Below are positions 19,065 to 38,428 of a stretch of 64,000 nt of DNA, piece by piece. The DNA is from Nitrospirota bacterium (GTDB lineage Bacteria > Nitrospirota > Thermodesulfovibrionia > UBA6902 > JAJYJJ01): the NCBI GenBank assembly GCA_021789595.1, contig JAJYJJ010000006.1, forward strand, positions 19,477 through 83,476, written 5' to 3'. Under the pieces are notes generated by a model that had not been told where the DNA came from, made no database searches, and saw nothing but the letters and a program-made list of their open reading frames with translations. Numbering within the stretch: the stretch's first letter is position 1; every line of letters begins with the position of its first letter. The translations under genes and the position numbers were made by a program.

Positions 19065-21548
19065 TTATTTTGCTGCCTCAATCCTCACAGCATCTGTAGA
19101 GTTCTGTCCATCTTTCGATGGATGGGTCAGTGCATTTACCTTTGCATGTGGAAAATGCACAGGGACAAAGAGCATACCCTCTGGCACCTCTGTAGATACC
19201 CTTGTCTTGATAAATACAGCGCCCCTTCGTGATGTAATCCTTGCAAATTCGCCGTCATGCAGGTTGTATCTTTCTGCGTCAGCATGATTAATCTGGATAA
19301 ATGCGTCTGAGAGAACATGGCTGAGGCTCTTGGACATTACAGACAATGCCCCTGAGTGCTGCATTATATTGCCTGTCACCATGATAAGGGGATATTCTTT
19401 ATCCGGCTCCTCGCCAGCCAGATATGGGGCAGGGACAAATGACCACTTCTCAGCAGCGTCCTTCATCTTTATTTGAACTATCTCCTCTTTCAATGCACCA
19501 AGGTCCCTTGCACCGAGGTCTACCCCCATTACCCTTGAAAGGTTTCTTATAATCTGCCAGTCAGGAATGCTGTCCCCTGTTACAGGGACAACCCTATTAA
19601 CAGGCTGCGGCAGCCCTCCTGCATTGATAAATGTGCCGTCCTTTTCTGCCCAGCCTGCTGCAGGCAATACAACATGGGCAAGTTTGGCTGTCTCTGTAAG
19701 GCGGATATCCTGTACAATGAGGAGGTCGAGATTGCGGAGGTTTTTCTCCAGGGTAACTGCATCAGGGAATACTGTAAGCGGGTCTTCTCCCATTATATAA
19801 AGGGCATTTACTGCCCCGGGCGTGTAGAGCATTTCAATGAGGTCATTGCCTTCACTGCCTCTTATTTGTTTCCCACCAGGTGCCATATCCGGTGCAATAC
19901 CCATCTGCCACAATCCATAGGTATTGCAATACTCCGCAGGTATCTGTAGCGATGAATGGCCGTCGCCTGTAAGCATCATCAGGTTTGAGGCAGCAAGGAC
20001 TGTGTTGAGTCCTTTTGTATTCTCCGCAGCCCCCATTGTTAAGACAACCATTCTGCTTTCTGCACGGAGAAACTCGGTAGCAGCGGCAAGCAACTCATCC
20101 TCACTGATGCCTGTTATCTCAGCTACCTTCTCAGGGGTGTATCCCCTCAGCATGGTTTCAAGGGCGGAGAAGTTTTCAGTTGCAGTAACCGTTTCTTTTT
20201 CATAGTGCAGACCCCTGGTAAGTGCGATATTCATTATCCCGTTTATAAGTGCTGTAGATGTGCCAGGTTTAATCCTTAACCATGTACTGCTGTGCCTTGT
20301 AAGCTTGGTCTCTCTCGGGTCTGCCACAATGAGTCTTGAACCCTCCTGTTTTGCCTCGAGAAACTTCAATCCCCATACAGGGTTTGTGGATGTAATATCA
20401 GACTCAATAACAAGTATTGCCTCTTTTCCAATTGGAGAGTCTATTCTTATCGGAAACCTCTTAAGCCCGAATGCCATTTCAACAGCCCTTAACGCCTTTG
20501 CATATCCGAGTCTTAAAGAGGAATCTATATTATTTGAGCCTATGGCGTTGCGCATAAACTTCTGGAGCATGTAGTTGTCTTCAATGGTGCACCTTGGTGA
20601 GCCAATAGCACCAACCGAAAAGGCACTATGACGGTCTATAACCTCTTTGAGCCGTGTAGATGCATAATAGAGTGCCTCTTCCCATGAGGTCTCCTTTAGT
20701 TGTCCATCTTTTCTTATAAGCGGGCTCTTGAGACGGTTTTCTGCATATATAAAGTCAAAGCCGAATCTGCCTTTACCGCAGAGGTCGCCTTGATTTACAC
20801 CCTTACCATCTACACCCCTTGCCCTGAGGATCCTACCTTCCCTTGTATCAAGCGTTACAGTACAGCCGACACCGCAGTAAGGACATATAGTATCATGCTC
20901 TTCAAGAAACCATGCCCTTGCCCTGTGTTTGTAAGGTTTACTTCCAAGGGCACCTACAGGGCATGCATCAATGCACTGGCCGCAGAATTCGCAGTCGAGC
21001 GTTTCCTCAAACGCAGGGCTTATCTTTGTCTTAAAACCCCTGCCTATGAAGTTGATAGCACCAACGCCCTGATGCTCCCAGCATACCCTTACACACCTTC
21101 CACAGAGTATGCACCTGTTTGGGTTTCTTTCTATGAGCGGGCTGCCTGTGGCCTCAGGCTCGTGTTTCCTCTCACCATAGAATCTGCTTGTTGCAGGGCC
21201 ATACTGATATGCAAAGTCCTGGAGCCTGCATTCCCCTGCCTTATCGCATATGGGACAGTCAAGGGGATGGTGTATCAACAGGAGTTCAAGCACTGTCTTC
21301 CTTGCCTTTCTCAGGTTTGGGGTGTCTGTATGAACAACCATGCCGTTTTCTGCCGGTGTAGAGCATGAGGCAAGCAGTTTTCTCTGGCCTTCTACCTCAA
21401 CAATACACAGCCTGCAGCCGCCATATGGTTTGAGCCGTCTGTCATAACAGAGGTGAGGTATATAGATGTCATTCTGTATGGCTGCCTTAAGAATGGTTGT
21501 ACCCTTTTCTCCCCTGATCTTTCTGTCATCTATTGTTAGCTCTATCAT
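19065..21548 (-). CDS. NuoG-type molybdopterin/iron-sulfur subunit (second copy)
   Basis: 827 residues. The N-terminus has a [2Fe-2S] ferredoxin (C34, C45, C48, C62), an HxxxCxxC-type cluster site (HHPLDCPICDKAGEC) and two [4Fe-4S] motifs (CILCGRCVRVC, CEFCGQCIDAC), then a molybdopterin-oxidoreductase body beginning ICPYCGVGC. At the place of the catalytic Sec/Cys of formate dehydrogenases it reads SSLRLGYAKA, so it is unlikely to oxidise formate and is more likely an electron relay as in NuoG. It overlaps nuoF2 by 4 nt. It is a paralogue of the NuoG at 33387-35975. Confidence 0.85.
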   Translation of the reverse strand: MIELTIDDRKIRGEKGTTILKAAIQNDIYIPHLCYDRRLKPYGGCRLCIVEVEGQRKLLASCSTPAENGMVVHTDTPNLRKARKTVLELLLIHHPLDCPICDKAGECRLQDFAYQYGPATSRFYGERKHEPEATGSPLIERNPNRCILCGRCVRVCWEHQGVGAINFIGRGFKTKISPAFEETLDCEFCGQCIDACPVGALGSKPYKHRARAWFLEEHDTICPYCGVGCTVTLDTREGRILRARGVDGKGVNQGDLCGKGRFGFDFIYAENRLKSPLIRKDGQLKETSWEEALYYASTRLKEVIDRHSAFSVGAIGSPRCTIEDNYMLQKFMRNAIGSNNIDSSLRLGYAKALRAVEMAFGLKRFPIRIDSPIGKEAILVIESDITSTNPVWGLKFLEAKQEGSRLIVADPRETKLTRHSSTWLRIKPGTSTALINGIMNIALTRGLHYEKETVTATENFSALETMLRGYTPEKVAEITGISEDELLAAATEFLRAESRMVVLTMGAAENTKGLNTVLAASNLMMLTGDGHSSLQIPAEYCNTYGLWQMGIAPDMAPGGKQIRGSEGNDLIEMLYTPGAVNALYIMGEDPLTVFPDAVTLEKNLRNLDLLIVQDIRLTETAKLAHVVLPAAGWAEKDGTFINAGGLPQPVNRVVPVTGDSIPDWQIIRNLSRVMGVDLGARDLGALKEEIVQIKMKDAAEKWSFVPAPYLAGEEPDKEYPLIMVTGNIMQHSGALSVMSKSLSHVLSDAFIQINHADAERYNLHDGEFARITSRRGAVFIKTRVSTEVPEGMLFVPVHFPHAKVNALTHPSKDGQNSTDAVRIEAAK

Positions 21549-23455
21549 GCCTTGACCTCACTTTCATTTAAGGGAATCTCAGATTTTCCCTGGGACTTTT
21601 TGTCCTTGAACATGTCAGCAGGCCCTACCTTTACAGCGCCAAACTTGCATGCCTCATAGCATGTCCTGCACTTTATGCATAGTTCCTGGTTGATGGTATG
21701 GGGTTTTTTCTTCTCCCCTGTAATCGCCTTCTGAGGGCATGCCCTCAGACATGCCATGCAGCCTTTGCATGCCTCCTCATCTATATAGAATGTTGACAAT
21801 ACCCTGCATACACCTGCATGACACCATTTCTCTTTTATGTGAGCCTCGTATTCGTTTCTGAAATACCGTATAGTTGTCAATACAGGGTTTGGCGCTGTCT
21901 GGCCAAGACCGCAGAGTGCAGTCACTATTATATCCCTTGATAGGTCTTCAAGAAGCTCTATATCCCCATCTTTACCCCTGCCTTCAGTGATATCTATGAG
22001 TTTGTCCAGCATGACCTTTGTGCCTATCCTGCATGGAGGGCATTTGCCGCAGGACTCATCGGTTGTGAATTCAAGAAAGAACCTGGCCACATTAACCATG
22101 CAGTTAGAATCATCCATTACTACCATCCCTCCTGAACCCACGATTGCGCCTGTCTGGACAATATCCTCGTAGGTAACAGGGGTATCAAGCAGATGCTCAG
22201 GGATGCATCCGCCAGAAGGACCTCCAAGTTGGACTGCCTTAAACCTCCTGCCTTTTTTGATGCCGCCGCCAATGTCATAGATTATTGTCTTTAACGGTAT
22301 ACCCATCGGCACCTCGATCAGTCCAATGTTCTTTATAGCACCTGTCAGTGCAAAGACCTTTGTGCCTGTTGACTTTTCTGTGCCAAGGCTCTTAAACCAG
22401 TCAGCACCATTCAGGATTATCGGGGGTATATTTGCGTATGTCTCCACATTGTTAAGCACCGTGGGTTTTCCCCAGAGCCCCTTATTAACAGGGAAGGGCG
22501 GTCTTGGTATAGGCATGCCCCTTTTGCCTTCAAGCGACCGCATCAGGGCTGTCTCTTCACCGCAGACAAATGCACCTGCACCCTGATAGATCTCGATGTC
22601 AAGATTAAAACCTGTACCGAGGATATTGTCGCCTAACAGGCCGTATTCCTTTGCCTGGTCTATGGCCATCTGGAGTCTCTTTACAGCCAGGGGATATTCT
22701 GCCCTTACATATATGTAGCCCTTAGTTGCTCCAATGGCCTTTGCACCTATTATCATACCTTCAAGCACAACATGGGGGTCTGCCTCCATAACAGACCTGT
22801 CCATGAATGCACCTGGGTCTCCCTCGTCTCCATTACAGAGGATATACTTCTGGTCTGCCTTGGACATGGAACATAATTCCCACTTGAGCCCTGTTGGAAA
22901 GCCTGCACCTCCCCTGCCTCTAAGACCTGATGCCTTTACCTCTTTTATAATGTCATCGGGGGACATCTCTGTAAGTGCCTTTGCCGCTGCCTGATAGCCG
23001 TCCCTTGCAATATATTCTTCTACCTTTTCTGCATCTATAAGACCCTTGTTCCTTAATGCCCTCAGAAACTGTAGATTAAAGAAGGGAATATCTGATGGGG
23101 ATGCATATTCTTCCACCACCCTTCCTTCCATAAGGTGTTCCTTGAATATCCTCCTTGTCTTATCCCCGTTAAGATAGCAGTATATTACTGGCGACTTGTT
23201 AATAATCTCCACGGTTGCCATCGGTTCTCTGCTACAAAGCCCTGCGCATCCGGATGTAGTCACGATTATATCCCTCACACCGCTCTTTGTAACCTCATCA
23301 AGCAACGCATCCATTACCTTTCTTGCGCCTGCAGCAAGACCGCATGTGCCCATATGAACCGTAACCTTTGCCCTATAGGCCCCTTCCCTTAAGGCAAGGG
23401 CTGACTTATATTCTTCCTTTATCTTTTTAAGGTCTGCTATTGTCAATTCTGGCAT
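21545..23455 (-). CDS. NuoF-type NADH/FMN-binding subunit with C-terminal ferredoxin (second copy)
   Basis: 636 residues, in the HoxF/HndC-like long form. The N-terminal thioredoxin-like domain carries a CGLAAGA and CAGLC pair, the central part the FMN/NADH domain (GLRGRGGAGFPTGLKW, CNGDEGDPGAF, GAGAFVCGEETALM), then the cluster site ESCGKCPPCRIGT, and two [4Fe-4S] motifs at the C-terminus (CKGCMACLRACPQ, CIKCRTCYEACKFG). It would oxidise NADH or reduce NAD+. It lies between the receiver-NuoE fusion and the NuoG homologue in one operon. The extra C-terminal ferredoxin is absent from the complex I copy at 32118-33380. Confidence 0.88.
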   Translation of the reverse strand: MPELTIADLKKIKEEYKSALALREGAYRAKVTVHMGTCGLAAGARKVMDALLDEVTKSGVRDIIVTTSGCAGLCSREPMATVEIINKSPVIYCYLNGDKTRRIFKEHLMEGRVVEEYASPSDIPFFNLQFLRALRNKGLIDAEKVEEYIARDGYQAAAKALTEMSPDDIIKEVKASGLRGRGGAGFPTGLKWELCSMSKADQKYILCNGDEGDPGAFMDRSVMEADPHVVLEGMIIGAKAIGATKGYIYVRAEYPLAVKRLQMAIDQAKEYGLLGDNILGTGFNLDIEIYQGAGAFVCGEETALMRSLEGKRGMPIPRPPFPVNKGLWGKPTVLNNVETYANIPPIILNGADWFKSLGTEKSTGTKVFALTGAIKNIGLIEVPMGIPLKTIIYDIGGGIKKGRRFKAVQLGGPSGGCIPEHLLDTPVTYEDIVQTGAIVGSGGMVVMDDSNCMVNVARFFLEFTTDESCGKCPPCRIGTKVMLDKLIDITEGRGKDGDIELLEDLSRDIIVTALCGLGQTAPNPVLTTIRYFRNEYEAHIKEKWCHAGVCRVLSTFYIDEEACKGCMACLRACPQKAITGEKKKPHTINQELCIKCRTCYEACKFGAVKVGPADMFKDKKSQGKSEIPLNESEVKA

Positions 23456-23465
23456 CTAAACCTCC

Positions 23466-24329
23466 TTATTTGTATTGCTCAAGGATTTCTGTTGCCTTCA
23501 CAGGGTCTACTGCCCCATATGTATCATGGTCTACCACTACCACGGGTGCAAGGCCGCATGCACCGAGGCATCTAACAGTTTCGAGGGAGAATCTTTTATC
23601 AGGTGTTATCTCGCCCTGCTGTATCTTTAGAAAGTCTTTTAGTTTCTCCAGTATCTCTGCAGACCTCTTTACATAACATGCTGTCCCGAGACATACCCTG
23701 AGGTTATGTTTCCCCTTTGGTTTCATGGTAAAGAACGAGTAGAATGAGACAACTGCATGGACCTCACTTACGGGGATATTCAATCCCTTTGCAATCAATC
23801 TCTGGACTGACGGTGGTAAATAGCCTATAAGCTCCTGTGCCTGTTGCAAAACAGGGATAAGACTGCCAGGTTTATATTTGTTTTTCTCGATAATGCTTAG
23901 GAGTTCCATGGATTTTTTTTCAATCTCCTCCTCTTCTGTCGTCTCCTTTACATGGGCCATTGCCTTGACAACAGACATGGCCTTTGATGCGACATCTATC
24001 AAGATCTCAGGGGAAAATGGTTTTGGAAGGTAATCAATAATCCCGAGTTCAAGGGCATCCTTTATGCTTTCCTGCGAGGGATAACCTGTAATAACTATAA
24101 TCCCTACAGATGGATTGATATTCCTGAGCCAGCGGATGAGTTCAATGCCGTCCACCTCTGGCATCTTCAGGTCTGTTATAATGATGTCAAAGGCGTTGTT
24201 TTTAAGAAGCCCCATTGCCTCTTGTGCGCCTGATGAGCCCTTTACCATATACCCTTCGGGCTGAAGTATCCTTTCGCAGCTTTTTATCACTACAGGCTCG
24301 TCATCGACAATTAGAATATTGCCTGCCAT
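23466..24329 (-). CDS. Receiver domain fused to NuoE-type [2Fe-2S] subunit
   Basis: 287 residues. Residues 1-120 are a CheY-like receiver (D9/D10, phospho-acceptor D53 in IITDLKMP, K103 in LPKPF). A charged linker (EEEEIEKK) leads to a complete NuoE domain with the [2Fe-2S] cysteines C213, C218, C254 and C258 in CxxxxC...CxxxC spacing. The start at 24329 follows AGGAGG by 6 nt; a longer frame upstream has no support. NuoE partners NuoF in NADH oxidation, so the fusion puts a phosphorylatable switch on an NADH dehydrogenase module. It is not an artefact of a frameshift: the two domains are in one open frame. Confidence 0.88.
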   Translation of the reverse strand: MAGNILIVDDEPVVIKSCERILQPEGYMVKGSSGAQEAMGLLKNNAFDIIITDLKMPEVDGIELIRWLRNINPSVGIIVITGYPSQESIKDALELGIIDYLPKPFSPEILIDVASKAMSVVKAMAHVKETTEEEEIEKKSMELLSIIEKNKYKPGSLIPVLQQAQELIGYLPPSVQRLIAKGLNIPVSEVHAVVSFYSFFTMKPKGKHNLRVCLGTACYVKRSAEILEKLKDFLKIQQGEITPDKRFSLETVRCLGACGLAPVVVVDHDTYGAVDPVKATEILEQYK

Positions 24330-24348
24330 AGATATCCTCCTTGATGGA

Positions 24349-25116
24349 TTATATTTCCAGGGGTAAGACCCTTGCCAGCCATATAAGCCAGCCCTCAGAG
24401 AGATGCTCCTTAAACAGGGAGCATATAACATCATTTGCCCTTACATTCGTTTCCTTTATCTCTGCAGTCATCGGGGAAGGAAGCTCGATTATCTTACCTG
24501 TGCCTGAAAGAAGCCTTGCAAATGGTTCACCTGCATTTACCATGGACAGATCTTTTACAAAGTCCACATAGAGCAGCTCTCCTGACAGCATCTCATACCT
24601 GATGTCACATCCAATCTCCCAGAGTCCACTGTCCTTCATAGGTCTTGCCCATACCCCTTCTTTATAGAATATGACAGGGTTTTCTCTATCCCTTAACGGC
24701 ACAATATAATCCCTGAACTCTGCGATGTATGCCTGCCTCAATATCCAGCCCCTTTTGTCAAAGACCTTCTTGGCAACATTGATCATGAAATCAGGGGTAA
24801 AGGGCTTCTCTATATACTCAAAGGCCCCAAGCCTTATGGATTCCTTGGCATCTTCAAGCGTGGGATAGCCTGTGATAACAACTACATCAGTGCTGGGTTG
24901 GATAACCCTTGCCTCTTTGAGGACCGTTATCCCATTGATATCAGGCAGTCTTATGTCTGTAATCAACAGGTCAAACTCATCCTTTGAAAGTTTATTCAGG
25001 GCATCTTCTCCCCTGCCAGCAGGGATTATTGTATAGCCCTCGGCCCCTAGTATCCTTTTGCAACTGAGGGTTACTACAGGGTCATCGTCCAGTACGAGTA
25101 TTTTTCCTTTTTCCAT
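24349..25116 (-). CDS. Receiver domain fused to GcvH/lipoyl-like domain
   Basis: 255 residues. Residues 1-120 form a receiver (D10-D12, phospho-acceptor D54 in LLITDIRLP, K104 in IEKPF). Residues about 150-250 resemble the glycine-cleavage H-protein fold: LWEIGCDIRYEMLSGELLYVD, NAGEPFARLLSGTGK, LPSPMTAEIKETN and EGWLIWLARV follow the order of GcvH. K208 (GTGK) lies about where GcvH carries its lipoyl lysine, allowing a one-residue gap, so lipoylation is possible but unproven. AGGAGGG is 4-5 nt before the ATG. First gene after the sigma-54 promoter, followed 19 nt later by the receiver-NuoE fusion. Confidence 0.78.
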   Translation of the reverse strand: MEKGKILVLDDDPVVTLSCKRILGAEGYTIIPAGRGEDALNKLSKDEFDLLITDIRLPDINGITVLKEARVIQPSTDVVVITGYPTLEDAKESIRLGAFEYIEKPFTPDFMINVAKKVFDKRGWILRQAYIAEFRDYIVPLRDRENPVIFYKEGVWARPMKDSGLWEIGCDIRYEMLSGELLYVDFVKDLSMVNAGEPFARLLSGTGKIIELPSPMTAEIKETNVRANDVICSLFKEHLSEGWLIWLARVLPLEI

Positions 25117-25142
25117 GTTGCCCTCCTTTCTGCCGAAAGGAT

Positions 25143-25158
25143 AGCATTCCTTATGCCA
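25143..25158 (-). promoter_or_regulatory. Sigma-54 (RpoN) promoter of the receiver-GcvH/receiver-NuoE/NuoFG operon
   Basis: TGGCATAAGGAATGCT reads GG-N10-GC with the exact -24/-12 spacing of sigma-54 promoters. Expected start near 25132, just upstream of the ribosome-binding site at 25127-25121. An NtrC-type activator is encoded directly upstream at 25698-27110. Confidence 0.72.
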
Positions 25159-25220
25159 AAACAGAAAATGGCCATAAACAGGCGTAAAACAACAAACTGA
25201 TTAAACAGACGGTGTGTTTA

Positions 25221-25239
25221 TGTATAGATCTTTTATACA
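25221..25239. promoter_or_regulatory. Candidate enhancer-binding site 1 (TGTAT-N9-ATACA)
   Basis: TGTATAGATCTTTTATACA, a 19-bp inverted repeat centred about 98 bp upstream of the predicted sigma-54 start. It has the same arms and spacing as site 2, which suggests a dimeric activator such as the adjacent NtrC-like protein. Confidence 0.6.
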
Positions 25240-25278
25240 GCGCTTTTTTATAAAGGCAGTATTATGGAGCAAAACAGG

Positions 25279-25297
25279 TGTATTTTATTTTTATACA
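25279..25297. promoter_or_regulatory. Candidate enhancer-binding site 2 (TGTAT-N9-ATACA)
   Basis: TGTATTTTATTTTTATACA, 19 bp, with arms extendable to GTGTAT/ATACAC. Centre about 156 bp upstream of the predicted start and 58 bp from the centre of site 1. Lies just after the stop of the lone receiver gene. Confidence 0.58.
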
Positions 25298-25304
25298 CAG
25301 CATG

Positions 25305-25676
25305 TTATTTTTTATCCTCTAATGACCTTTTTACTGCACTGAGTATATCTTCAGGATTGAAAGGCTTTTCAATATACTCATATGCGCCAAGTTTTATGGC
25401 CTGGACAGCAGTGCTGATGGTGCCGTATCCTGTGATAATAATCACAGGGATGTGCGGCCATTTCTCCTTAATCTTTTTCAGGACCTCAAGCCCATCCATG
25501 TCAGGCATCTTTAGATCAGTAAGGACAAGGTCAAACCTCTCAGCATCAAGCCGTCTTAATGCCTCATCCCCCCTTGAGGTTAATTCAACATCATAGCCTT
25601 CAGGCCCAAGCACCCTATCACAACTGACCCTCACAATCGCCTCGTCATCGATAACAAGTATCCTCTGCTTATCCAT
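25305..25676 (-). CDS. Single-domain response regulator
   Basis: 123 residues, receiver only (D10/D11, phospho-acceptor D54 in LVLTDLKMP, K104 in IEKPF); no output domain. It may act as a phosphate sink or relay between the kinase at 27275-28861 and the receiver fusions downstream. ATG at 25676 is preferred over GTG at 25691 because GGGGGG lies 4 nt before it. It starts 21 nt after the NtrC-like gene and is separated from the sigma-54 promoter region by its own stop codon. Confidence 0.88.
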   Translation of the reverse strand: MDKQRILVIDDEAIVRVSCDRVLGPEGYDVELTSRGDEALRRLDAERFDLVLTDLKMPDMDGLEVLKKIKEKWPHIPVIIITGYGTISTAVQAIKLGAYEYIEKPFNPEDILSAVKRSLEDKK

Positions 25677-25697
25677 CGCTCCCCCCTTCACCGGCTT

Positions 25698-27110
25698 CTA
25701 TGAGCAATCCTGGGTGATCCGGTATTTTTTTACAAGCGCCTGGAAATTTGTCCTCTGCATACCCACATCCCTTGCAGCATGTGTTATGTTCCAGTTATTT
25801 CTCCTCAATGCCTCTATGATAAATGCCCGTTCAATCTCCTCTATGGATCTGTGCCTTAGATTCTTTTTCACCTGCCTTAGCTCTTCGCTGTTTTGTGGTA
25901 TTGTTGCTAAGCTTTTTGGAGGCTGAATAAAACTGAGGTGTTCTATCTCAATGGTTTTACCTGTGCATAGGAGTATTGCCCTCTGTATAGAACTTTCTAA
26001 CTCTCTCACATTGCCAGGCCAGTCATGAGAAAGCAGGAGCCGCATTGCTTCAGCAGAGATGCGGCTTACAGACGGCTTATCCAACTCGTTTGAGTATTTC
26101 TTCAAAAAGTGGTTTGCAAGGATTGGGATATCCTCTTTTCTATCCCTCAACAGAGGTATGTGGATGGGGAATATGTTGAGCCTGTAAAAGAGGTCTTCCC
26201 TGAATAAGCCCTTCTCTGTCATTGCCTTGAGGTCTTTGTTTGTTGCAGCAATAAATCTAATATCTACCTTAATACTCTTTTTAGAGCCTATCGGCCTAAA
26301 TTCCTTCTCCTGAAGCACCCTCAAAAGCTTTGCCTGCGTGGACGGCCCTATGTTGCCGACCTCATCTAAAAAGAGCGTTCCAGCGGTTGCTTCCTCTATA
26401 AGTCCTTTTTTGTCAGCGACTGCTCCTGTGAATGAGCCCTTTGTATAACCGAACAGTTCTGATTCTATCAGGTTGTCGGGTATGGTCCCGCAGTCAACCA
26501 CAACAAAAGGCTGGTCCTTTCGCGGACTATTGTAGTGGATTGCCCTTGCGACAAGTTCCTTGCCTGTTCCGGTCTCGCCTGTGATGAGGACAGTGCTCCC
26601 TGTGGGTGCAACATATGCTATCAACTGAAAGACCATCTCCATGGCCTTTGAAGAGCCGACGATATTGCGGATGTATCGCGTGCTTAATTCCCTCTTCAGT
26701 TGAAGGTTTTCAAAGAGGAGCTGTCTTCTTTCAATAGCCCTTCTAACCACTGCACTAAGCGTCTCAGGGGTAAAGGGTTTTTCTATGTAGTCATAGGCGC
26801 CCAATTTCATCGCAGAGACCGCTGTATCTACGGTTCCGTATCCTGTTATGATGATTACTTCTGTGTCTGGATAGTCCTCCTTGACCCTCTTTAATATCTC
26901 AATGCCGCCGATGCCGGGCATCTTCAGGTCGGTAAGGACGAGGTCAAACGGCTTCTGCCCTAAGATCTTGAATGCCTCCTCAGGTCCTGCTAACAGTTGT
27001 ACCTCATATCCTTCAGGTTCAAGTATCCTCTTACAGCTTATCCTCACGACCTCCTCGTCATCTATTACAAGGACCCTTTGCCTTTCTGCATCTGTTTTAT
27101 TTGTCTTCAC
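25698..27110 (-). CDS. NtrC-family sigma-54-dependent response regulator
   Basis: 470 residues: receiver (phospho-acceptor D61 in LVLTDLKMP), AAA+ domain (Walker A GETGTGKE, the sigma-54 contact loop ESELFGYTKGSFTGA with Ser in place of the usual Ala, Walker B GTLFLDEVGNI, then RLNIFPIHIPLLRDRKEDI) and a Fis-type helix-turn-helix at the C-terminus (NWNITHAARDVGMQRTNFQ). It is expected to activate the sigma-54 promoter at 25143-25158 by binding the paired inverted repeats. The start is GTG at 27110; no strong ribosome site is visible. Confidence 0.93.
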   Translation of the reverse strand: MKTNKTDAERQRVLVIDDEEVVRISCKRILEPEGYEVQLLAGPEEAFKILGQKPFDLVLTDLKMPGIGGIEILKRVKEDYPDTEVIIITGYGTVDTAVSAMKLGAYDYIEKPFTPETLSAVVRRAIERRQLLFENLQLKRELSTRYIRNIVGSSKAMEMVFQLIAYVAPTGSTVLITGETGTGKELVARAIHYNSPRKDQPFVVVDCGTIPDNLIESELFGYTKGSFTGAVADKKGLIEEATAGTLFLDEVGNIGPSTQAKLLRVLQEKEFRPIGSKKSIKVDIRFIAATNKDLKAMTEKGLFREDLFYRLNIFPIHIPLLRDRKEDIPILANHFLKKYSNELDKPSVSRISAEAMRLLLSHDWPGNVRELESSIQRAILLCTGKTIEIEHLSFIQPPKSLATIPQNSEELRQVKKNLRHRSIEEIERAFIIEALRRNNWNITHAARDVGMQRTNFQALVKKYRITQDCS

Positions 27111-27127
27111 CTGAAAATCTTCCCCAG

Positions 27128-27197
27128 CCCCTCTTTTCCAAAGAGGGGGAATCCCTCATTTATTCCCCCCTTTACCAAAGGGGGGCGAGGGGGGATT
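27128..27197. repeat. Double GC-rich hairpin repeat
   Basis: CCCCTCTTT/AAAGAGGGG (27128-27136 with 27140-27148) and CCCCCCTTT/AAAGGGGGG (27165-27173 with 27177-27185), then GAGGGGGGATTTTTT. This resembles dispersed intergenic repeats seen in many environmental bacteria. It lies between the sensor kinase and the NtrC-like gene and could attenuate transcription between them. Confidence 0.55.
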
Positions 27198-27274
27198 TTT
27201 TCATGCTCCTTTGTGCTGACTTGCCGGCATGTATGTTTCATTCCGTTTAATGAATAGTCATCCCTTAGCATCAA

Positions 27275-28861
27275 TCAACTGCTCTTATTAACGGGAAGTC
27301 TCACAAAGAAGCTTGCACCCTTGCCTGGTCTGCTCTCCACATGTATATAGCCTCCGTGTTTTTTGACGATGCCGTGGCTTACTGCAAGCCCAAGACCCGT
27401 GCCTTTCCCAACAGGTTTTGTTGTAAAGAACGGCTCAAATATCTTGCCTATGTAGTCCTCGCTTATTCCAGGCCCTGTGTCGGTAAATTCTATCTCGATA
27501 TAGCCCTCTGCATCTTCACTGATTGTCCTTGTTGCAATATTTATTGTGCCCCTGTCATTCATGGCATCTGCTGCATTGATAAGGAGATTTAAGAATACCT
27601 GTTCAAGCTGTGATGCGTCTCCTGCTATTGGAGGAAGAGAGCTATCGATCTCTTTAATAATCTTTATATTGTGGAATTTTGCCTGATTCTGAACCATATC
27701 GAGGGTGTGTCTCAGGGTTTCATTTACATCCATTTCAGTTTTCTCAGACGCGATTGACCTTGAAAAACCGAGAAGTCCCTTGATTATCTTTGAGCATCTC
27801 TCTGCCTGTTCGATGATGACCTCCAGGTCTTCTCTGTCGAGCTTATTTCCAGGAGGGGTTCTTTTGAGCATCAGATGGGCAAATGTAACAATCCCTGTAA
27901 GCGGACTGTTTAATTCATGCGCCACACCTGCTGCCATCCTTCCAAGGGAGGCCAGTTTTTCCGAGGCTATCATCTGCTCCTGTGTCTTCATAATCTCTGC
28001 CGTTTTCTTCCGAACCTCTTCCTCCAATGTCTTTGTCCAGTTCTCCATGTTTTCCCTATATGCCTTTATGTCCTTGGACATAGAGTTGAAAGTCCTCGCC
28101 AGCAGCCCCATCTCGTCCTTTGACTGTATTGGTATGGCGTAATCTAAATCACCCTTTCCCAATCTCTTCATTCCCTCCTCAAGAAGCGCTACAGGTTTTG
28201 AGACAAATATATAGAGTATGATGCAAAGCGAGATTGATATAACGAATATGAATGAGGCGCCATAAAGGATAATGGCAAGTCGGTTTCTCTCGATGGCTGC
28301 ATCTACGGTAGTGGTGCTGAACTCGGTCTCAAGCAGGCCAAGTACCCTCTGGCCTTTTTGGTGGACATGACAGGCCGCTGTATAGCAGGACGGCTCGTTA
28401 TAGATTGGAACTACAAACTTAAGAAGCCTGACACCCTTGTTGTCTGTTATGCTCCAGTTCTTTTTGTTGAATAATGTCTCCCGTGGTCTCTGGGGATTGG
28501 AATGGCAGGAACGACAGACAGGGGAGTTTTTATCAACCTGAAGGCCTATCTCTGCCCGTTTAGATGAATAAAATATCTTGCCTTTCGAATTGAATACCCT
28601 GATTACCTGAATGTCTTCCCCTTTGCCAATAACCTCCACAGTCTGCTGTATGGCCTCCCGATGCCGTGTAAGCATGCCGTAATATACTGCCTTCTTAGCA
28701 AGGTCGGCAGAAGAACCGGCATAGTTGATGAGGTTTTTCATAAGGACATTCTCTTCATAGCGGATAAAGATATACCCGAAAATGGTACTGCCGGCAAACA
28801 TAAGACAGGCGATAGTAATTATCAGCTTGGAGGCCAGAGAGTGTATAGATTTCTTTATCAT
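27275..28861 (-). CDS. Sensor histidine kinase with periplasmic haem-c-type motifs
   Basis: 528 residues. Membrane helices at about 13-32 and 196-221 enclose a periplasmic domain with CRSCH (116-120, a canonical haem c site) and CYTAACH (159-165, a CX4CH variant). HAMP (220-275), a coiled linker, HisKA (phospho-acceptor H315 in GVAHELNSPLTGI) and HATPase ([24 protein letters not shown]) follow. The periplasmic haem motifs suggest sensing of redox state or a gaseous ligand. It heads the regulatory genes that lead to the receiver-fused NADH module and is divergent from nuoA. There is no strong ribosome-binding site. Confidence 0.88.
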   Translation of the reverse strand: MIKKSIHSLASKLIITIACLMFAGSTIFGYIFIRYEENVLMKNLINYAGSSADLAKKAVYYGMLTRHREAIQQTVEVIGKGEDIQVIRVFNSKGKIFYSSKRAEIGLQVDKNSPVCRSCHSNPQRPRETLFNKKNWSITDNKGVRLLKFVVPIYNEPSCYTAACHVHQKGQRVLGLLETEFSTTTVDAAIERNRLAIILYGASFIFVISISLCIILYIFVSKPVALLEEGMKRLGKGDLDYAIPIQSKDEMGLLARTFNSMSKDIKAYRENMENWTKTLEEEVRKKTAEIMKTQEQMIASEKLASLGRMAAGVAHELNSPLTGIVTFAHLMLKRTPPGNKLDREDLEVIIEQAERCSKIIKGLLGFSRSIASEKTEMDVNETLRHTLDMVQNQAKFHNIKIIKEIDSSLPPIAGDASQLEQVFLNLLINAADAMNDRGTINIATRTISEDAEGYIEIEFTDTGPGISEDYIGKIFEPFFTTKPVGKGTGLGLAVSHGIVKKHGGYIHVESRPGKGASFFVRLPVNKSS

Positions 28862-28963: not shown

Positions 28964-28993
28964 TTGACAAGTTAGATGCATTTTGAGTATAAA
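28964..28993 (+). promoter_or_regulatory. Sigma-70 promoter of the nuoA-N operon, apparently leaderless
   Basis: TTGACA (28964-28969), 18-nt spacer, TATAAA (28988-28993). Only 7 nt separate the -10 box from the nuoA ATG at 29001, so transcription should begin at or next to the start codon. No Shine-Dalgarno sequence precedes nuoA. Confidence 0.65.
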
Positions 28994-29000
28994 AGTAACC

Positions 29001-29372
29001 ATGCCAGGAAAATATATCCCATCTGATTATCTGCCGATACTTATCTTTCTCATGGTTGCAACAGCCGTCGGTCTTGGTGTTCTCATTGCTGGCAGTATTT
29101 TTAGATTAAAAAGACCCTACCCTGAAAAACTCATGCCCTATGAATCTGGAAACCTGCCTGTTGGCGAGCCACGATATAGATTCTCTGTCAGATTTTATAT
29201 TATCGCCATGCTCTTTGTTGTATTTGATGTTGAGGCTGTGTTCCTCTACCCATGGGCAGTTGTCTTCGGCAGTATAGGTTTTTATGCCTTTGTAGAGATG
29301 ATGGTCTTTATTGTTATCCTGGTTGTAGGTTATGTATATGCCTGGAAAAAAGAGGCATTCAATTGGGATTAA
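29001..29372 (+). CDS. nuoA: NADH-quinone oxidoreductase subunit A
   Basis: 123 residues, three membrane helices, with the family motifs PYESG (MPYESGNLPVG), the FYIIAMLFVVFDVEAVFLYPWA segment and a final helix ending YVYAWKKEAFNWD. It forms part of the membrane arm near the quinone site. ATG 29001 is chosen over TTG 28983, which would lie inside the promoter. First gene of a contiguous 14-gene complex I operon running to 43339. Confidence 0.94.
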   Translation: MPGKYIPSDYLPILIFLMVATAVGLGVLIAGSIFRLKRPYPEKLMPYESGNLPVGEPRYRFSVRFYIIAMLFVVFDVEAVFLYPWAVVFGSIGFYAFVEMMVFIVILVVGYVYAWKKEAFNWD

Positions 29373-29397
29373 TAGCAGAACACAGAGGTGATGGCAA

Positions 29398-29919
29398 GTG
29401 ATAATAGACGGCGTAACAGCAGTGGTAGAGGTTGAGGAAGGGGTAAAGATAATCCCTGGGGCAAATACGATTATCACTACAATGGATAAACTTATAAACT
29501 GGGGCAGGGCATCATCGCTTTGGCCGATGACATTTGGCCTCGCATGCTGTGCTATAGAGATGATGACAACAGGCTCAAGCCATTACGACCTTGACAGGTT
29601 CGGTATTATATTCAGGGGCTCACCGAGACAGGCAGATTTTATGATTGTGGCAGGAACTGTCACAAAGAAGATTGCCCCGGTTGTCAGAAGGGTCTATGAC
29701 CAGATGCCAGAGCCGAAATATGTTATATCCATGGGTAGTTGTGCATGTTCAGGTGGAATCTTCAATACATACAGCACTGTTCAGGGCGTTGATACATTTT
29801 TGCCTGTGGATGTGTATGTCCCTGGATGCCCGCCAAGGCCTGAAGCATTGATGCATGGGATTATCAAACTGCAGGAGAAGATAAAGAAGGAACACCTTAG
29901 ATGGAGCCGCTGGCGGTAG
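29398..29919 (+). CDS. nuoB: NADH-quinone oxidoreductase subunit B
   Basis: 173 residues; carries cluster N2, the last iron-sulfur centre before quinone. The ligands are seen in [20 protein letters not shown] and [11 protein letters not shown]. The start is GTG at 29398 with AGAGGTGA about 7 nt upstream; the first 30 residues ([17 protein letters not shown]) are a common extension. Its end overlaps nuoC by 19 nt. Confidence 0.95.
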
Positions 29920-30464
29920 CACAGAGGTTAAAAGAGAGATGCCCTGAAGAGGTTTTGAATATAACCGAATTCAGGGGGCAGGTATCTGTTGTCCTTAAAA
30001 AGGACAGGATACTTGAGATATGCAGATACCTGCACGATGAGCCTGAACTCTATTTTGACTACCTGAAAGACCTCTGCGGCGTGGATTATCTTGGAAAGAA
30101 GGGAAAGAGGTTTGAAATAGTATATCATCTCTATTCCATAAGGCACAGGCATATGATCAGACTTAAGGCAGAGGTTACAGAGGATGACTGTACTATTGAC
30201 AGCGTTATGCCGGTCTGGATTGGAGCAAACTGGCATGAGAGGGAATGCTTTGACATGTATGGGGTTGTCTTCAAAGGCCATCCTGACCTGAGAAGGCTTT
30301 TGATGCCTGAGGACTGGGAAGGCCATCCCCTGAGGAAGGATTATCCGGTTAAGGGTCCTGAAAAGGAATGGTCAGGTTTTGTCGAGGTGCTTGAGAAGGC
30401 AGAGAGGTTTAAGGAATTCCAGTGGGTCAGCATAAAAGCAGGCGAAGGTGGCAGAGGTGAATGA
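29901..30464 (+). CDS. nuoC: NADH-quinone oxidoreductase subunit C
   Basis: 187 residues, the 30-kDa subunit of the peripheral arm. The signature [20 protein letters not shown] and the C-terminal [16 protein letters not shown] are present. NuoC and NuoD are separate here rather than fused. It overlaps nuoB at its start and nuoD by 17 nt at its end. Confidence 0.95.
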
Positions 30465-31635
30465 GGTAAAAGAGCTTGTAGTAAACATGGGCCCCCAGCA
30501 TCCTGCAACACACGGGGTCTTGAGGCTTGTGCTTCAACTTGACGGAGAGACCGTTGTCAAGTGCACTCCGCATGTAGGATATCTCCACAGGGGGATTGAA
30601 AAGCTTGGAGAAAACATGACATACCTCTCCGCCCTTCCACTTACAGACAGGCTTGACTATATCGCATCCATGTCAAACAATGTCGGCTATGTTGTTGCAG
30701 TAGAAAAACTCTTTGGAATAGAGGCACCTGAAAGGGCAAAGTTTATCAGGACAATGGTTGCCGAGATGTCAAGGATATCGAGCCATATAATCTGGCTTGG
30801 CACCCACGCCCTTGACATCGGGGCTATGACGCCGTTTCTTTATGCATTCAGGGAGAGGGAATGGATCCTCGACCTCTTTGAGATGCTCTGTGGTGCGAGG
30901 CTTACAGTCAGTTATCCGAGGATAGGCGGTGTCCGCAATGATGTAACACAGGAGTTCCTTGACAGCCTCTATAGGTTTGCTGAAGAGTTTCCAAAGAGGA
31001 TTGAAGAATATGAGACCCTGATAGACAAGAACCGCATATGGCTCAAGAGGACAAAGGGTATTGGCATTATATCCAAGGAGGAGGCAATAAACTGGGGGCT
31101 CACAGGCGCCACCCTCAGGGGCTCAGGCGTCCCTTACGATGTGAGAAAATATGCACCCTATGATGCATATGACAAGGTCGAGTTTGATATCCCGATTGGG
31201 GAAAATGGCGATGTCTATGACAGATACAGGGTCAGGATGGCAGAGATGAGGCAGGCAAACAGGATCTTAAAGCAGTGTATAGAGAAGCTTCCAGAAGGCC
31301 CTATCATGGCGCCTGATGCGCCCAAATTTACACTCCCGCCAAAAGACCGTGTGCTTAAGGACATGGAGTCATTAATACATCATTTTGTCCTGATTACCAA
31401 GGGGCCGATGGCTGCTCCTGAGGGTGAGATATATGTTGCAACAGAGGTCCCAAAGGGTGAGCTCGGCTTCTACTTTGTAAGCGACGGCACAGGCAGGCCT
31501 TACAGGATGAGGGTCAGGGCGCCGTCCTTTGTGCATGCCTCTGTTCTTCCGAGACTATGCGAAGGAGGCCTTGTGGCAGATGTTATTGCAAATATAGGGA
31601 CGATTGATATCGTGCTTGGAGAATGCGATAGATAG
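30448..31635 (+). CDS. nuoD: NADH-quinone oxidoreductase subunit D
   Basis: 395 residues, the 49-kDa subunit lining the quinone-binding site. It opens with [19 protein letters not shown] and includes [12 protein letters not shown], the RIGGVRNDV segment, and ends near [25 protein letters not shown] start at 30448 inside nuoC, with GGCGAAGGTG upstream. Related to the large subunit of Ni-Fe hydrogenases but without the metal-binding cysteines. Confidence 0.96.
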
Positions 31636-31648
31636 CAGGACAGGTCTG

Positions 31649-32113
31649 ATGTTAAGCGAGAAGGCAATAAAACAGGTAGATGAGATAATTGCGAGATACC
31701 CTGCAAAGAGGTCAGCCGTGATGCCTGCCCTCTATATAGCGCAGATGGAATTTGGATGGCTGACTCCAGAGGCAATAGAGGCGGTGTCCGAGGCTACAGG
31801 CGTGCCGAAGGCCACTGTTAAGGGTGTTGCCACATTCTATGCAATGTATAAACATAAGCCGATAGGGAGGCATCTGATCCAGTTGTGCACAAATGTCTCC
31901 TGCATGATATTCGGCGCTGAGAGGCTCGTTGATATTATTAAGAATAAGTACGGACTTGAGGCCGGCGGCACAACAGCCGACGGAAGGTTTTCTCTTGTGA
32001 TTATGGAGTGCATCGGTGCATGCGGGACTGCACCTGCAATGCTTGTGGATACAGATTTTCATGAGAACCTGACGGAAGAAAACATAGTGAAGATACTGGA
32101 GAATTACAAATAG
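31649..32113 (+). CDS. nuoE: NADH-quinone oxidoreductase subunit E
   Basis: 154 residues, thioredoxin-like, binding one [2Fe-2S] cluster with C80, C85, C121 and C125. The start is ATG 31649 (MLSEKAIKQ), 13 nt after the nuoD stop; an in-frame codon at 31604 would lie inside nuoD. This is the plain version of the domain that is fused to a receiver at 23466-24329. Confidence 0.94.
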   Translation: MLSEKAIKQVDEIIARYPAKRSAVMPALYIAQMEFGWLTPEAIEAVSEATGVPKATVKGVATFYAMYKHKPIGRHLIQLCTNVSCMIFGAERLVDIIKNKYGLEAGGTTADGRFSLVIMECIGACGTAPAMLVDTDFHENLTEENIVKILENYK

Positions 32114-32117
32114 ATTC

Positions 32118-33380
32118 ATGGAAACAATATTGTTGAAGAACATCGAAAACCCAAACTCTGCTGATATAGATGAGTATATAAAGGCAGGGGGGTACAGGAG
32201 CCTTCAAAAGGCCATTGAGATGCAGCCAAAGGCTATCATAGATGAGGTAAAAAAATCAGGTCTCAGGGGACGGGGCGGTGCAGGTTTTCCAACAGGCATG
32301 AAATGGACCTTTGCATCGTCAGACCCTAAGACGCCGCGGTATCTCCTGTGCAATGCAGACGAGGGAGAGCCCGGAACATTTAAGGATAGGCCAATCCTGG
32401 AGAAGAATCCCCATCTGTTAATAGAGGGTATGGCAATAGCAGGTTATGCGATTGGTGCAGAATACGGCTATATATACCTGAGGGGAGAATATCCAGGGGC
32501 AAAGGATATACTGGATACGGCCATAAGACAGGCATATGACAGGGGTCTTCTTGGCGATAATATCCTCGGCAGGGCAGTTAGGTTTCACCTGTCGGTTCAC
32601 CAGGGTGCAGGGGCCTACATCTGCGGCGAGGAGACAGCACTCATCGAATCCCTGGAAGGTGAGAGGGGACAGCCGAGGATAAAGCCTCCATTCCCTGTTA
32701 ATGTTGGTGCATGGTCAAAGCCGACGGTTATAAACAATGTGGAGACATTATCTAACATCCCTTACATTATTGAGACAGGCGCAGAGGCATACTCAAAGAT
32801 AGGCAGCCGTGATTGCCCCGGGCCAAAGCTCTACTGTGTAAGCGGCCATGTCGAGAGGCCAGGTGTGTATGAGCTTCCAATGGGTATAAACCTCAGGGAT
32901 ATAATCTATACACATGCAGGAGGTATAAGAGGCGGGGAAAAACTTAAGGCAGTCATACCTGGAGGGGTCTCAACCCCAATACTGCCGCCTGATAAGATTG
33001 ACTGCCCTATGGATTTTGTCAACATGCCGAAGCACGGCAGCATGCTCGGTTCAGGTGCTGTGATGGTATTTGATGACACGGTATGCCTTGTAAAGGTGTG
33101 TTACAGGGCATTGAGGTTTTTTGACCATGAATCCTGTGGAAAGTGCACCCCCTGCAGGGAAGGCACAGGCTGGCTTAGCAACATCCTTGGCCGCATAGAG
33201 CATGGAAAGGGAAGGGATGGAGATATAGAACTGTTGCTCGATGTGGCAGGCAATATGCTTGGCAAGACATTCTGTCCTCTCGGAGACGGCGCAGCATCTG
33301 TTGTGCAGAACTTTATAAGGCATTTCAGGCCAGAGTTTGAAGGGCATATAAGGGATGCAGGGTGTAGATTGCAAAATTAA
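32118..33380 (+). CDS. nuoF: NADH-quinone oxidoreductase subunit F
   Basis: 420 residues, binds FMN and NADH and carries cluster N3. Motifs: GLRGRGGAGFPTGMKW, CNADEGEPGTFKDR, GAGAYICGEETALIESLEG and ESCGKCTPCREGTGW. Normal complex I length, without the C-terminal ferredoxin found in the second copy at 21545-23455. It starts 4 nt after nuoE. Confidence 0.96.
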   Translation: METILLKNIENPNSADIDEYIKAGGYRSLQKAIEMQPKAIIDEVKKSGLRGRGGAGFPTGMKWTFASSDPKTPRYLLCNADEGEPGTFKDRPILEKNPHLLIEGMAIAGYAIGAEYGYIYLRGEYPGAKDILDTAIRQAYDRGLLGDNILGRAVRFHLSVHQGAGAYICGEETALIESLEGERGQPRIKPPFPVNVGAWSKPTVINNVETLSNIPYIIETGAEAYSKIGSRDCPGPKLYCVSGHVERPGVYELPMGINLRDIIYTHAGGIRGGEKLKAVIPGGVSTPILPPDKIDCPMDFVNMPKHGSMLGSGAVMVFDDTVCLVKVCYRALRFFDHESCGKCTPCREGTGWLSNILGRIEHGKGRDGDIELLLDVAGNMLGKTFCPLGDGAASVVQNFIRHFRPEFEGHIRDAGCRLQN

Positions 33381-33386
33381 AGATCT

Positions 33387-35975
33387 ATGATTACAGTAAC
33401 CATAAACGGTAAGGACATCAAACTTGAAAAGCCTGTGACCATCCTTGAGGCAGCAAGGACGGCAGGCATAGAGATCCCTACGCTCTGTTACCACGAATCC
33501 CTTGAGCTATATGGCGGCTGCAGGCTCTGTCTTGTTGAGGTGGAGAAGATGCCAAAGCTGCAGACGGCATGCACACTCTATGTCACAGACGGGATGGTTG
33601 TGAGGACAGAGTCAGAACAGATTGCAGATGCAAGGAGGGGGATACTTGAATTCCTCTTGATCAATCATCCGCTTGATTGCCCTTATTGTGATAAGGCAGG
33701 CGAGTGTGATCTGCAGGACCTCGTTGAAAAATACGGCCCGACAGCAGGGAGATTTGCTGAGGGAAAGAGGAAACACCCTGAGAGCTTTGATGACCCCATT
33801 ATTGTAAGGAATATGGAGCGATGCGTCATGTGCACACGGTGCGTGAGGATGTGCGATGGGGTACAGGGGGACTCTGCCATAGCAGTTACAAACAGGGGCA
33901 GTCATTCATTTATAGAGCCCTTCTCAGGCGGCAGGTATAACTGCGAATACTGCGGCAATTGTCTCACAGTCTGCCCTGTCGGGGCCATCATGTCAAGGCT
34001 TCACAGGCACAGCTACAGGGCATGGCTTGTTGAGACAGAGGTTAATACTGTATGTTCATACTGCGGCGTCGGCTGTTCAATGGTCATACAGGTCAGGAAT
34101 AATTCCATCAACAGGGTAGTCCCGAGGTTCGGGCTTGGCATAAATAATGGCCTGCTGTGTGTGCGTGGCCGTTTTGGTTATGACTATGTGGGGAACGAAC
34201 AGAGGATTAAATCACCCCTTGTAAAAAAGGGTGGGAAGCTTGAGCCTGTAACATGGAATGAGGCATTTAATACGGTGGCAGACAGGTTAAAGGCATTAAG
34301 GGAAAGATACGGCGGTTCGGCTTTAGCCGGGATTGCATCGGGCAGGTGCACAAACGAGGAGAACTATGTATTTCAGAAGCTCATGAGATGCGGGCTTGGA
34401 ACAAACAATATAGATTCATCTGCCCGGCTCGGATACAGTGGTGCACAGAGATACCTTGAGAATATATTTGGCCAGGGTGTGACAGCAAACCCCATCTATG
34501 GGATAGCCAACTCCGAGGCAATACTTATCGTAGGCGGAGACCCTACAGCCATAAATCCCATACTGGGCCTTCAGATCAGAACTGCATCAAGAAACGGTGC
34601 AAGGGTTATAACCATAGGCTATGCCCCGGGCCTTGAAAGATTTAACAGCATAGGACTTAAGCCCCGCATATTTACAGAAGGTATTCTGCTGAGCGGAATA
34701 CTATGTGAGATACTGAAGATTAAGCCATTTACAGGCGAAAATCAGACATTGGAATCCGTGATAAAGGGGCTTTCCCTTCGTCCTGCCAGGGAGATAGCAG
34801 AGATATGCAGGCTTGCAGAGGATGACATAAGAAAGGCTGCAGAGGCGATTTGCAATGTTTCATCAATATCCATTGTTATAGGACAGGACATTATACAGAG
34901 GAGCAATGGTAACAGAAACCTGTTCATGCTTTCATCCATAGGATATATGCTTAATGCCCGGATGACACTTCTTTCTGAAAGGCCGAATGAGCAGGGCACA
35001 ATAGATATGGGCTGTCTGCCGGATATGCTTCCTGGCGGAAGACCGCTTGAGATAGAGACATTCAGGAAGAGGTATGAGGGTTTAGCTGGCACAGAGATTC
35101 CATCAGGGCCTGGGCTTACATTGATGGAGATGGTTGAGGCAGCAGAGGCAGGTCAGATAAAGGCAATGTATATAATGGGTGAAAACCCCGTGTTTAACCT
35201 CCCGGATTCCAACGCTGTAAAGAAGGCCCTGGGCAGCCTTGAGTTCCTTGTTGTGCAGGACATCTTTCTTTCAGAGACGGCAAAGATAGCGGATGTTGTC
35301 CTGCCTGCCCTTGCATGGTCAGAAAAGGAAGGCACATATACAAACCTTGAAAGAAGGATGCAGCATGTAAGAAGGGCTGTAGATATACAGGGGATGGAGG
35401 ACTGGAGGATAATCTCTGAGATAGGGAAGAGGCTTGAGGTCTCCATGCCTTATAACTCTTCTGAGGATATTATGGCAGAGATGGTCAGGGTATCGCCGCT
35501 TCATACGGGTCTTACCTATGAGGATGTGGATAAAGGCAATGCCCTCTGGCCGTATAAGGGAGAGCCATTGAGGGCTGAGATGCCATCATTAAGTCTATCA
35601 GATGAAAACATTATTGCAGATAAAGGGAAGCTATATCTTATGGTAAGAAGGCCGCTGTTTCATTCAGGCACACTGAGCAGGAGGTCTTATGCGTTAAACA
35701 ATATATGTTCTGAGCCATATTTAAGGATAAGCAGAGCTGTTGCAGAAAGGCTATCTGTCAAGGACGGCGATGTGCTAAAGGTTTCAACAGTAAAAGGGAG
35801 TCTTCAGGTTAAGACAAAGGTGGACATCTCATTGAATGATTCTGCGGTGCTTCTCACAAACAACTTTGAAGGCATGGGAGCATTCAGTCTGTTAGGATAT
35901 AAACTCGACCCTGTCACAAAGGCTCCAGGCATTGAAGGGACAGAGGTTACTATTGAGAAGGGAAAGCCAAGGTAG
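33387..35975 (+). CDS. nuoG: NADH-quinone oxidoreductase subunit G
   Basis: 862 residues. N-terminal [2Fe-2S] ferredoxin (CYHESLELYGGCRLC), HPLDCPYCDKAGEC, two [4Fe-4S] motifs (CVMCTRCVRMC, CEYCGNCLTVC), then a molybdopterin-oxidoreductase body beginning VCSYCGVGCS. The residue expected to be Sec/Cys in formate dehydrogenases is Gly in SSARLGYSG, so it is an electron relay, not a formate dehydrogenase. It starts 6 nt after nuoF and its stop abuts the nuoH ATG. Confidence 0.93.
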   Translation: MITVTINGKDIKLEKPVTILEAARTAGIEIPTLCYHESLELYGGCRLCLVEVEKMPKLQTACTLYVTDGMVVRTESEQIADARRGILEFLLINHPLDCPYCDKAGECDLQDLVEKYGPTAGRFAEGKRKHPESFDDPIIVRNMERCVMCTRCVRMCDGVQGDSAIAVTNRGSHSFIEPFSGGRYNCEYCGNCLTVCPVGAIMSRLHRHSYRAWLVETEVNTVCSYCGVGCSMVIQVRNNSINRVVPRFGLGINNGLLCVRGRFGYDYVGNEQRIKSPLVKKGGKLEPVTWNEAFNTVADRLKALRERYGGSALAGIASGRCTNEENYVFQKLMRCGLGTNNIDSSARLGYSGAQRYLENIFGQGVTANPIYGIANSEAILIVGGDPTAINPILGLQIRTASRNGARVITIGYAPGLERFNSIGLKPRIFTEGILLSGILCEILKIKPFTGENQTLESVIKGLSLRPAREIAEICRLAEDDIRKAAEAICNVSSISIVIGQDIIQRSNGNRNLFMLSSIGYMLNARMTLLSERPNEQGTIDMGCLPDMLPGGRPLEIETFRKRYEGLAGTEIPSGPGLTLMEMVEAAEAGQIKAMYIMGENPVFNLPDSNAVKKALGSLEFLVVQDIFLSETAKIADVVLPALAWSEKEGTYTNLERRMQHVRRAVDIQGMEDWRIISEIGKRLEVSMPYNSSEDIMAEMVRVSPLHTGLTYEDVDKGNALWPYKGEPLRAEMPSLSLSDENIIADKGKLYLMVRRPLFHSGTLSRRSYALNNICSEPYLRISRAVAERLSVKDGDVLKVSTVKGSLQVKTKVDISLNDSAVLLTNNFEGMGAFSLLGYKLDPVTKAPGIEGTEVTIEKGKPR

Positions 35976-37555: not shown

Positions 37556-37563
37556 GGAGTATT

Positions 37564-38385: not shown

Positions 38386-38428
38386 TATACAGATTGAAGA
38401 TAAATATTGAATTCTCATGGAGTGAGAT

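Follow-up and report, generated by a model that had tools for sequence, protein, structure and literature searches.

A signalling and redox operon beside complex I

We analysed a 64,000-nt stretch of a Nitrospirota genome (assembly GCA_021789595.1, contig JAJYJJ010000006.1, positions 19,477 to 83,476 of the forward strand; referred to here as the window and numbered from its first letter), within which seven genes on the minus strand join two-component signalling proteins to redox subunits of the NuoE, NuoF and NuoG types. Reading from 28861 down to 19065, these encode a sensor histidine kinase, an NtrC-type activator, a lone receiver (REC) domain, a receiver fused to a GcvH-like domain (REC-GcvH), a receiver fused to NuoE (REC-NuoE), NuoF and NuoG, the last two being termed NuoF2 and NuoG2 below. 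An earlier interpretation made from the DNA letters alone (the sequence-only reading) had named these domains, fusions and their order, and every gene and fusion was found in the window. Divergent to the block on the plus strand lies a complex I locus, nuoA–N (28983..43339), with all 14 nuo genes, among them its own NuoE (31604–32113), NuoF (32118–33380) and NuoG (33387–35975), termed NuoE1, NuoF1 and NuoG1. The additional set is thus unneeded for completing complex I, as had been claimed; we consider complex I below as its proposed partner.

The REC-NuoE fusion is widespread in the class to which this genome belongs: at a cut-off of E 1e-80, 149 of 230 genomes carried it, spread over 82 of 115 genera. 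In a sample of the phylum it was present in 108 of 395 genomes, all of which were the window's own genome or members of the same order or class. The relatives listed bear names such as Nitrospirae, Thermodesulfovibrionales, Dissulfurispiraceae, Candidatus Magnetomonas, Magnetominusculus and Magnetoovum, and the named minority among the best 120 matches per search belonged throughout to Nitrospirota or to unplaced BMS3 bacteria. Among the matches listed, the fusion occurred in none of 73 loci of other types (L059–L131). Gene content was surveyed in 60 loci, drawn from 59 genomes, that carry the fusion in full (G186 contributed two; L055 and L164 were excluded, L164 having no full fusion). All 60 share the core order, which is not unique to this assembly, and an artefact of a single assembly was rejected on the basis of the class-wide fusion and this shared order. 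NuoF was followed by NuoG in 55 of the loci, REC-GcvH stood directly ahead of REC-NuoE, among the genes searched, in 47, and an additional 127-aa thioredoxin-like protein was encoded in 49; the kinase was seen in 28 at most (L179 being doubtful, with a 27 % match) and the stand-alone receiver in 25. As contig ends cut many of the loci, these counts are lower bounds. We found no description of a receiver–NuoE or receiver–HydC fusion in the open-licence literature searched, and a published account may exist.

Some occurrences of the fusion had features of their own. Two or more tandem NuoF–NuoG pairs lie behind a single REC-NuoE in L140, L147 and L149, and L169 (genome G210, 9133–9993) has an orphan fusion (49 % match) with no NuoF or NuoG within about 20 kb. 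One REC-NuoE frame (G013:C44:736–1587) contains an internal TGA. A further locus, L058 (DYHX01000015.1), is titled Nitrospira japonica, a label that may be wrong, as its position corresponds to G269, a genome of the same class as that of the window.

Subunits of the putative enzyme

NuoF2 (636 aa; 21545..23455, minus strand) comprises a thioredoxin-like N-terminus, a flavin mononucleotide (FMN) domain and a C-terminal 2×[4Fe-4S] region. Its best relatives of solved structure were chains of the bifurcating HydB/NfnB type (742–771 bits, vs 393 for Thermus Nqo1), and the BfuB domain set was recovered, with PF01512, PF10589 and Fer4 above cut-off and SLBB below it (23.5 vs 27 bits). PMC9304861 names five ligands of the B2 cluster as well as marker residues, and gives Thr at the second ligand position in about two-thirds of the family. 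With C438, C/T476, H525, C531 and C536 (7t2r_B numbering) as the reference, all five ligands are present in NuoF2 (C452, T490, H539, C545 and C550). Residues were compared in alignments from 42 loci, including L055 and L150 from one genome, in which some rows are tandem copies and two NuoF2 rows are fragments. Counting the rows with a letter at each position, relatives of NuoF2 had Cys in 39/39 at the first, Thr, Ser, Cys or Ala in 30, 4, 3 and 2 at the second, His in 39/40 at the third, and Cys in 40/40 and 39/39 at the fourth and fifth. Markers A202 and M204 correspond to A216 and M218 of NuoF2 and were found in 39/39 relatives' rows with a letter, whilst marker F182 (the chain's Phe is counted at 180) corresponds to L194 in the window and to Phe in 33 relatives, Leu in four and Ser in three.

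Complex I NuoF1, in contrast, has Thr and Lys at the Ala/Met marker positions and lacks both an equivalent of C536 and the C-terminal ferredoxin domain. As it keeps the ligand His too, we did not regard this residue alone as a mark of bifurcation. In a tree of 67 of the 69 NuoF rows given (without the NuoF of L049 and L051), NuoF2 and NuoF1 formed two distinct groups, each with full support, on long branches; on the strength of this tree and the ligands, we rejected the idea that the module is a recent duplicate of the complex I NuoEFG. The sequence-only reading had described a second NADH dehydrogenase, and this description holds in so far as the block is a conserved, kinase-wired redox module apart from the NuoEFG of complex I; it was too general in that the NuoF is not generic but of the bifurcating HydB/BfuB type. 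Given a NuoF2 of this type with a C-terminal 2×[4Fe-4S] region, ferredoxin is likely to be a co-substrate of the module.

The 127-aa protein that relatives encode as a separate gene matches the N-terminal part of NuoF2 in the window; here, as in L132, L154, L168, L175 and L177, the domain is on NuoF and a separate 127-aa gene was not seen. Relatives also carry all or part of a DRTGG–HATPase–DRTGG–PHP–HATPase cassette, the last gene of which was present in 38 of the 60 loci and the PHP gene in 27. At least three cassette genes lay beside NuoEF in 28 of the 73 other-type loci listed, the titles of which are largely those of Bacillota/Clostridia, Deltaproteobacteria and Bacteroidales. A check of the window's genome by DRTGG only returned one match, a 366-aa frame on another contig. 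In L059 (Nitrospirae bacterium GWC2_56_14) nuoA is followed by the same cassette, NuoE, the 127-aa protein, NuoF and NuoG; the NuoE match there begins past the receiver part, making it a possible unfused counterpart.

REC-NuoE (23466..24329, minus strand) is most likely 287 aa in length, a start at 24329 (ggaggatatctATG) being likelier than one at 24434. It is the counterpart of HydC/BfuC. The four cluster cysteines are invariant, and its NuoE part (NuoE2) is 38–42 % identical to the NuoE proteins linked in this genome to carbon monoxide dehydrogenase (CODH) and formate dehydrogenase (FDH), vs 31 % to NuoE1. The genome holds several further NuoEF sets. A CODH catalytic subunit (TIGR01702) accompanies the set in L049, and L051, at a contig end, has a similar set; the set in L050 has Nfn-like partners, and that in L048 has an FDH alpha subunit read in two frames that probably span a selenocysteine UGA.

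NuoG2 (827 aa; 19065..21548, minus strand) is BfuA-like. It has every cluster Cys, and 19 cluster-type cysteines were kept in 41/41 rows, whilst the position of the molybdenum (Mo)-ligand Cys or selenocysteine was Gly in 41/41 (Gly348 in the window). The residue that follows, His in formate dehydrogenase, was Tyr in 38 rows, Phe in two and His in one. NuoG1 is likewise without the Mo ligand. As this ligand is lost from NuoG2, an identity as the subunit of an NAD-dependent formate dehydrogenase was rejected.

Kinase, receivers and a sigma-54-like site

The kinase (528 aa; 27275..28861, minus strand) carries the motifs CRSCH and CYTAACH ahead of HAMP, HisKA and HATPase_c domains. As these motifs precede HAMP and are kept in 17/18 and 18/18 of the homologues compared, respectively, binding of c-type haem is predicted, in agreement with the haem-type sensor proposed earlier; no Pfam family covers the sensor region. 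The gap between the kinase and NtrC genes (27111–27274) contains C-rich and G-rich repeats that look inverted (CCCCCTTTGGTAAAGGGGGGA and one further copy). NtrC (25698..27110, minus strand) consists of a receiver, a sigma-54 interaction domain and a Fis-type helix–turn–helix, and is followed by the stand-alone receiver (25305..25691, minus strand), for which 25676, an ATG preceded by GGGGGGAGCG, is the likelier start.

Both fused receivers possess the acidic pocket, phosphoacceptor Asp, Thr/Ser and Lys expected of a receiver domain. In REC-NuoE these residues (D9, D10, D53, T81 and K103) were invariant in 40/40 and 16/16 aligned sequences, the two sets overlapping, and in REC-GcvH they were kept in 43/43. 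The first helix of a receiver is the usual kinase-docking surface, and here the four receivers of the operon have in common a helix-1 motif, [VI]VxxSCxR[IV]L, that was found in none of seven other receivers of the same genome. Moreover, apart from itself, the REC-GcvH receiver had its best matches, among 50, in the other three receivers of the operon.

For the remainder of REC-GcvH (255 aa; 24349..25116, minus strand), the GcvH part fell below the Pfam cut-off in the window (E 0.0048) and just above it in relative L139, and a low-confidence structure model (mean pLDDT 63) had H-proteins as its first Protein Data Bank matches (1onl, TM 0.61 on the target). The position nearest the lipoyl site was Lys in 18 and Gln in 17 of 43 sequences. 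As the nearest lysine is present in just 18 of these, the protein is H-protein-like but probably unlipoylated, and a role as lipoyl carrier was rejected on account of this variable lysine.

A sigma-54-like promoter, TGGCATAAGGAATGCT (25143..25158, minus strand), begins 42 nt upstream of REC-GcvH. The sequence-only reading had noted a sigma-54 promoter; a sigma-54-like site is indeed there and is conserved in relatives, but its position would put only the four genes from REC-GcvH onwards under its control, not all seven. As a pattern by itself it is at chance level (one found vs 0.76 expected in 64 kb). In a scan of 35 relatives' loci (L055, from the same genome as L150, was left out), eight scored ≥ 25.5 of 28 and the remainder ≤ 22.5. 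NtrC lay upstream in four of the loci scanned, and all four were among the eight (permutation p 0.001). We therefore retained the site for its conservation, though not for the pattern by itself, and its occurrence in 4/4 scanned relatives with NtrC upstream supports the proposed induction through NtrC. Kinase and NtrC together with a sigma-54-like site before target genes are shared with NtrC-type operons that have sigma-54 promoters; unlike these, the present operon adds three receivers, of which two are joined to enzyme-like domains.

Partner of the module and competing explanations

The kinase and nuoA are divergent in 17 of the 60 loci; in a further one, L178, nuoA precedes the kinase in the same direction. 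To quantify linkage, we used the 97 genomes that were ≥ 90 % complete and had both genes among the matches listed (147 had the fusion and 145 had NuoA); in 33 of these no more than 20 kb separated nuoA from the fusion, whilst rough arithmetic gives about one or two expected at random. Because of this linkage, complex I is the leading candidate for the partner. Ten genomes of the class had no NuoA match and seven of them carry the fusion. Five of the seven have a NuoF 73–80 % like the window's NuoF1, and G337 has a strong NuoH match only, so that six genomes do contain other complex I genes and their lack of nuoA appears to be an effect of contig ends.

The closest published parallel is Nuo-Bfu, a predicted bifurcating complex I in which a BfuBC core and a NuoG-type BfuA are linked to nuo genes, and for which Nitrospirae are included (PMC9304861). 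The present module resembles it in each of these components and in their linkage to complex I genes. In Nuo-Bfu, however, BfuABC replaces NuoEFG within one 14-gene cluster, whereas here it forms a separate, extra operon beside a complete nuoA–N; the receiver on BfuC is likewise a feature of the present module, unlike Nuo-Bfu, and the main text of PMC9304861 does not contain the term 'response regulator'. The HydABC/HndABCD hydrogenases also have a NuoE-like C subunit, a NuoF-like B subunit with extra clusters and the helper cassette (PMC8880783), and the 127-aa protein of the module's relatives is HndB-like. Unlike HydABC, the module has a NuoG-like protein without Mo ligand in place of HydA, a C subunit that bears a receiver, and a kinase and NtrC within the operon. 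A gate has been proposed in the C-terminal cluster domain of HydC, which shifts between FMN and the ferredoxin path (PMC8880783, PMC9304861), and in the published model NAD(H) binding controls the bifurcation step in Bfu enzymes (PMC9304861). Contact between a response regulator and an NADH dehydrogenase has a precedent in Rv3143, an orphan protein encoded near nuo genes that acts on mycobacterial complex I; it is reported as a separate, unfused protein that binds NuoD and not NuoE (PMC9274095), whereas here the receiver is fused to NuoE.

We favour, at a probability of roughly 45 %, the explanation that the operon specifies a BfuABC-type enzyme with a receiver on BfuC, which would be induced through NtrC, switched by the kinase and likely coupled to complex I. 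Under this proposal, the kinase would read a periplasmic redox signal via haem and phosphorylate all four receivers of the operon. Phosphorylated NtrC would raise transcription from the sigma-54 site, and the phosphorylated receiver on BfuC would change where the cluster domain of that subunit sits or how freely it moves; this domain is the proposed gate between FMN and the ferredoxin path. As NuoG2 has no substrate site, electrons would go to or from a docked partner, with NADH and ferredoxin together at the other end. The likeliest partner is the quinone module of complex I, on which BfuABC would serve as an alternative to NuoEFG. A bolder extension, which we hold only tentatively and think doubtful in its full form, is that complex I has two exchangeable heads, NuoEFG working with NADH alone and the receiver-bearing BfuABC with NADH and ferredoxin, between which the haem-sensing kinase would shift rapidly by phosphorylation of the gate receiver and slowly by induction.

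A number of observations weigh against parts of the favoured explanation, and those concerning the partner would fit a somewhat less probable alternative, in which BfuABC is under two-component control as a soluble NADH/ferredoxin oxidoreductase with an unlinked acceptor, the linkage to nuoA reflecting co-regulation. In 61 of the 97 genomes nuoA lies on another contig, and in three it is on the same contig at a greater distance; complex I retains its own NuoEFG; G166, a genome 98 % complete in 160 contigs, carries the fusion and yielded no NuoA, NuoH, NuoD or close NuoF1; and the first 346 residues of NuoG2 are 44.7 % identical to the genome's formate dehydrogenase, compared with 36.6 % to NuoG1 over the full length. 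Against this alternative stand the excess of nuoA within 20 kb and a NuoG2 devoid of a substrate site, and reading the fetched neighbourhoods, without clustering, revealed no recurring acceptor gene. Also counting against the favoured explanation, NuoF1 retains equivalents of three B2 ligands out of five (C438, H525 and C531), and the window's NuoF2 seems to lack the third marker Phe. That the module is an ordinary duplicate of the complex I NADH module is very improbable. The two share the same three subunit types and neither NuoG has the Mo ligand; against this stand the separation of NuoF2 from NuoF1 in the tree, the full Bfu ligand set with the extra ferredoxin domain, and the greater similarity of NuoE2 to the CODH- and FDH-linked proteins.

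As to control, NtrC was seen in only eight of the 60 loci and the kinase in no more than 28, four of the eight loci with a strong sigma-54-like site show no NtrC in the 1.2–5.2 kb fetched upstream, and over the whole domain the NtrC receiver is 42–43 % identical to the fused receivers and up to 47 % identical to receivers outside the operon. Furthermore, the structure model of REC-NuoE (predicted TM-score 0.44) is too weak to place the receiver, and that of REC-GcvH is likewise too weak to position its domains. An undefined position would suit the idea that the receivers fused to NuoE and GcvH have no control over the enzyme, being instead phosphate sinks, scaffolds or aids to assembly or localization, with control exerted on transcription only. 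We think this rather unlikely in view of the invariance of all five phosphorylation residues and the retention of the fusion across the class. Since those residues are invariant and the fusion is on the proposed gate subunit, direct, kinase-driven modulation through phosphorylation of REC-NuoE appears likelier. Overall, the sequence-only reading is partly supported.

If the favoured explanation is correct, a receiver on the proposed gate subunit would place an energy-conserving enzyme under the direct control of a signal and would provide a handle on the gate model. It would also make testable whether anaerobes can drive complex I with ferredoxin plus NADH, a matter that here concerns largely uncultured Nitrospirota, magnetotactic members included.

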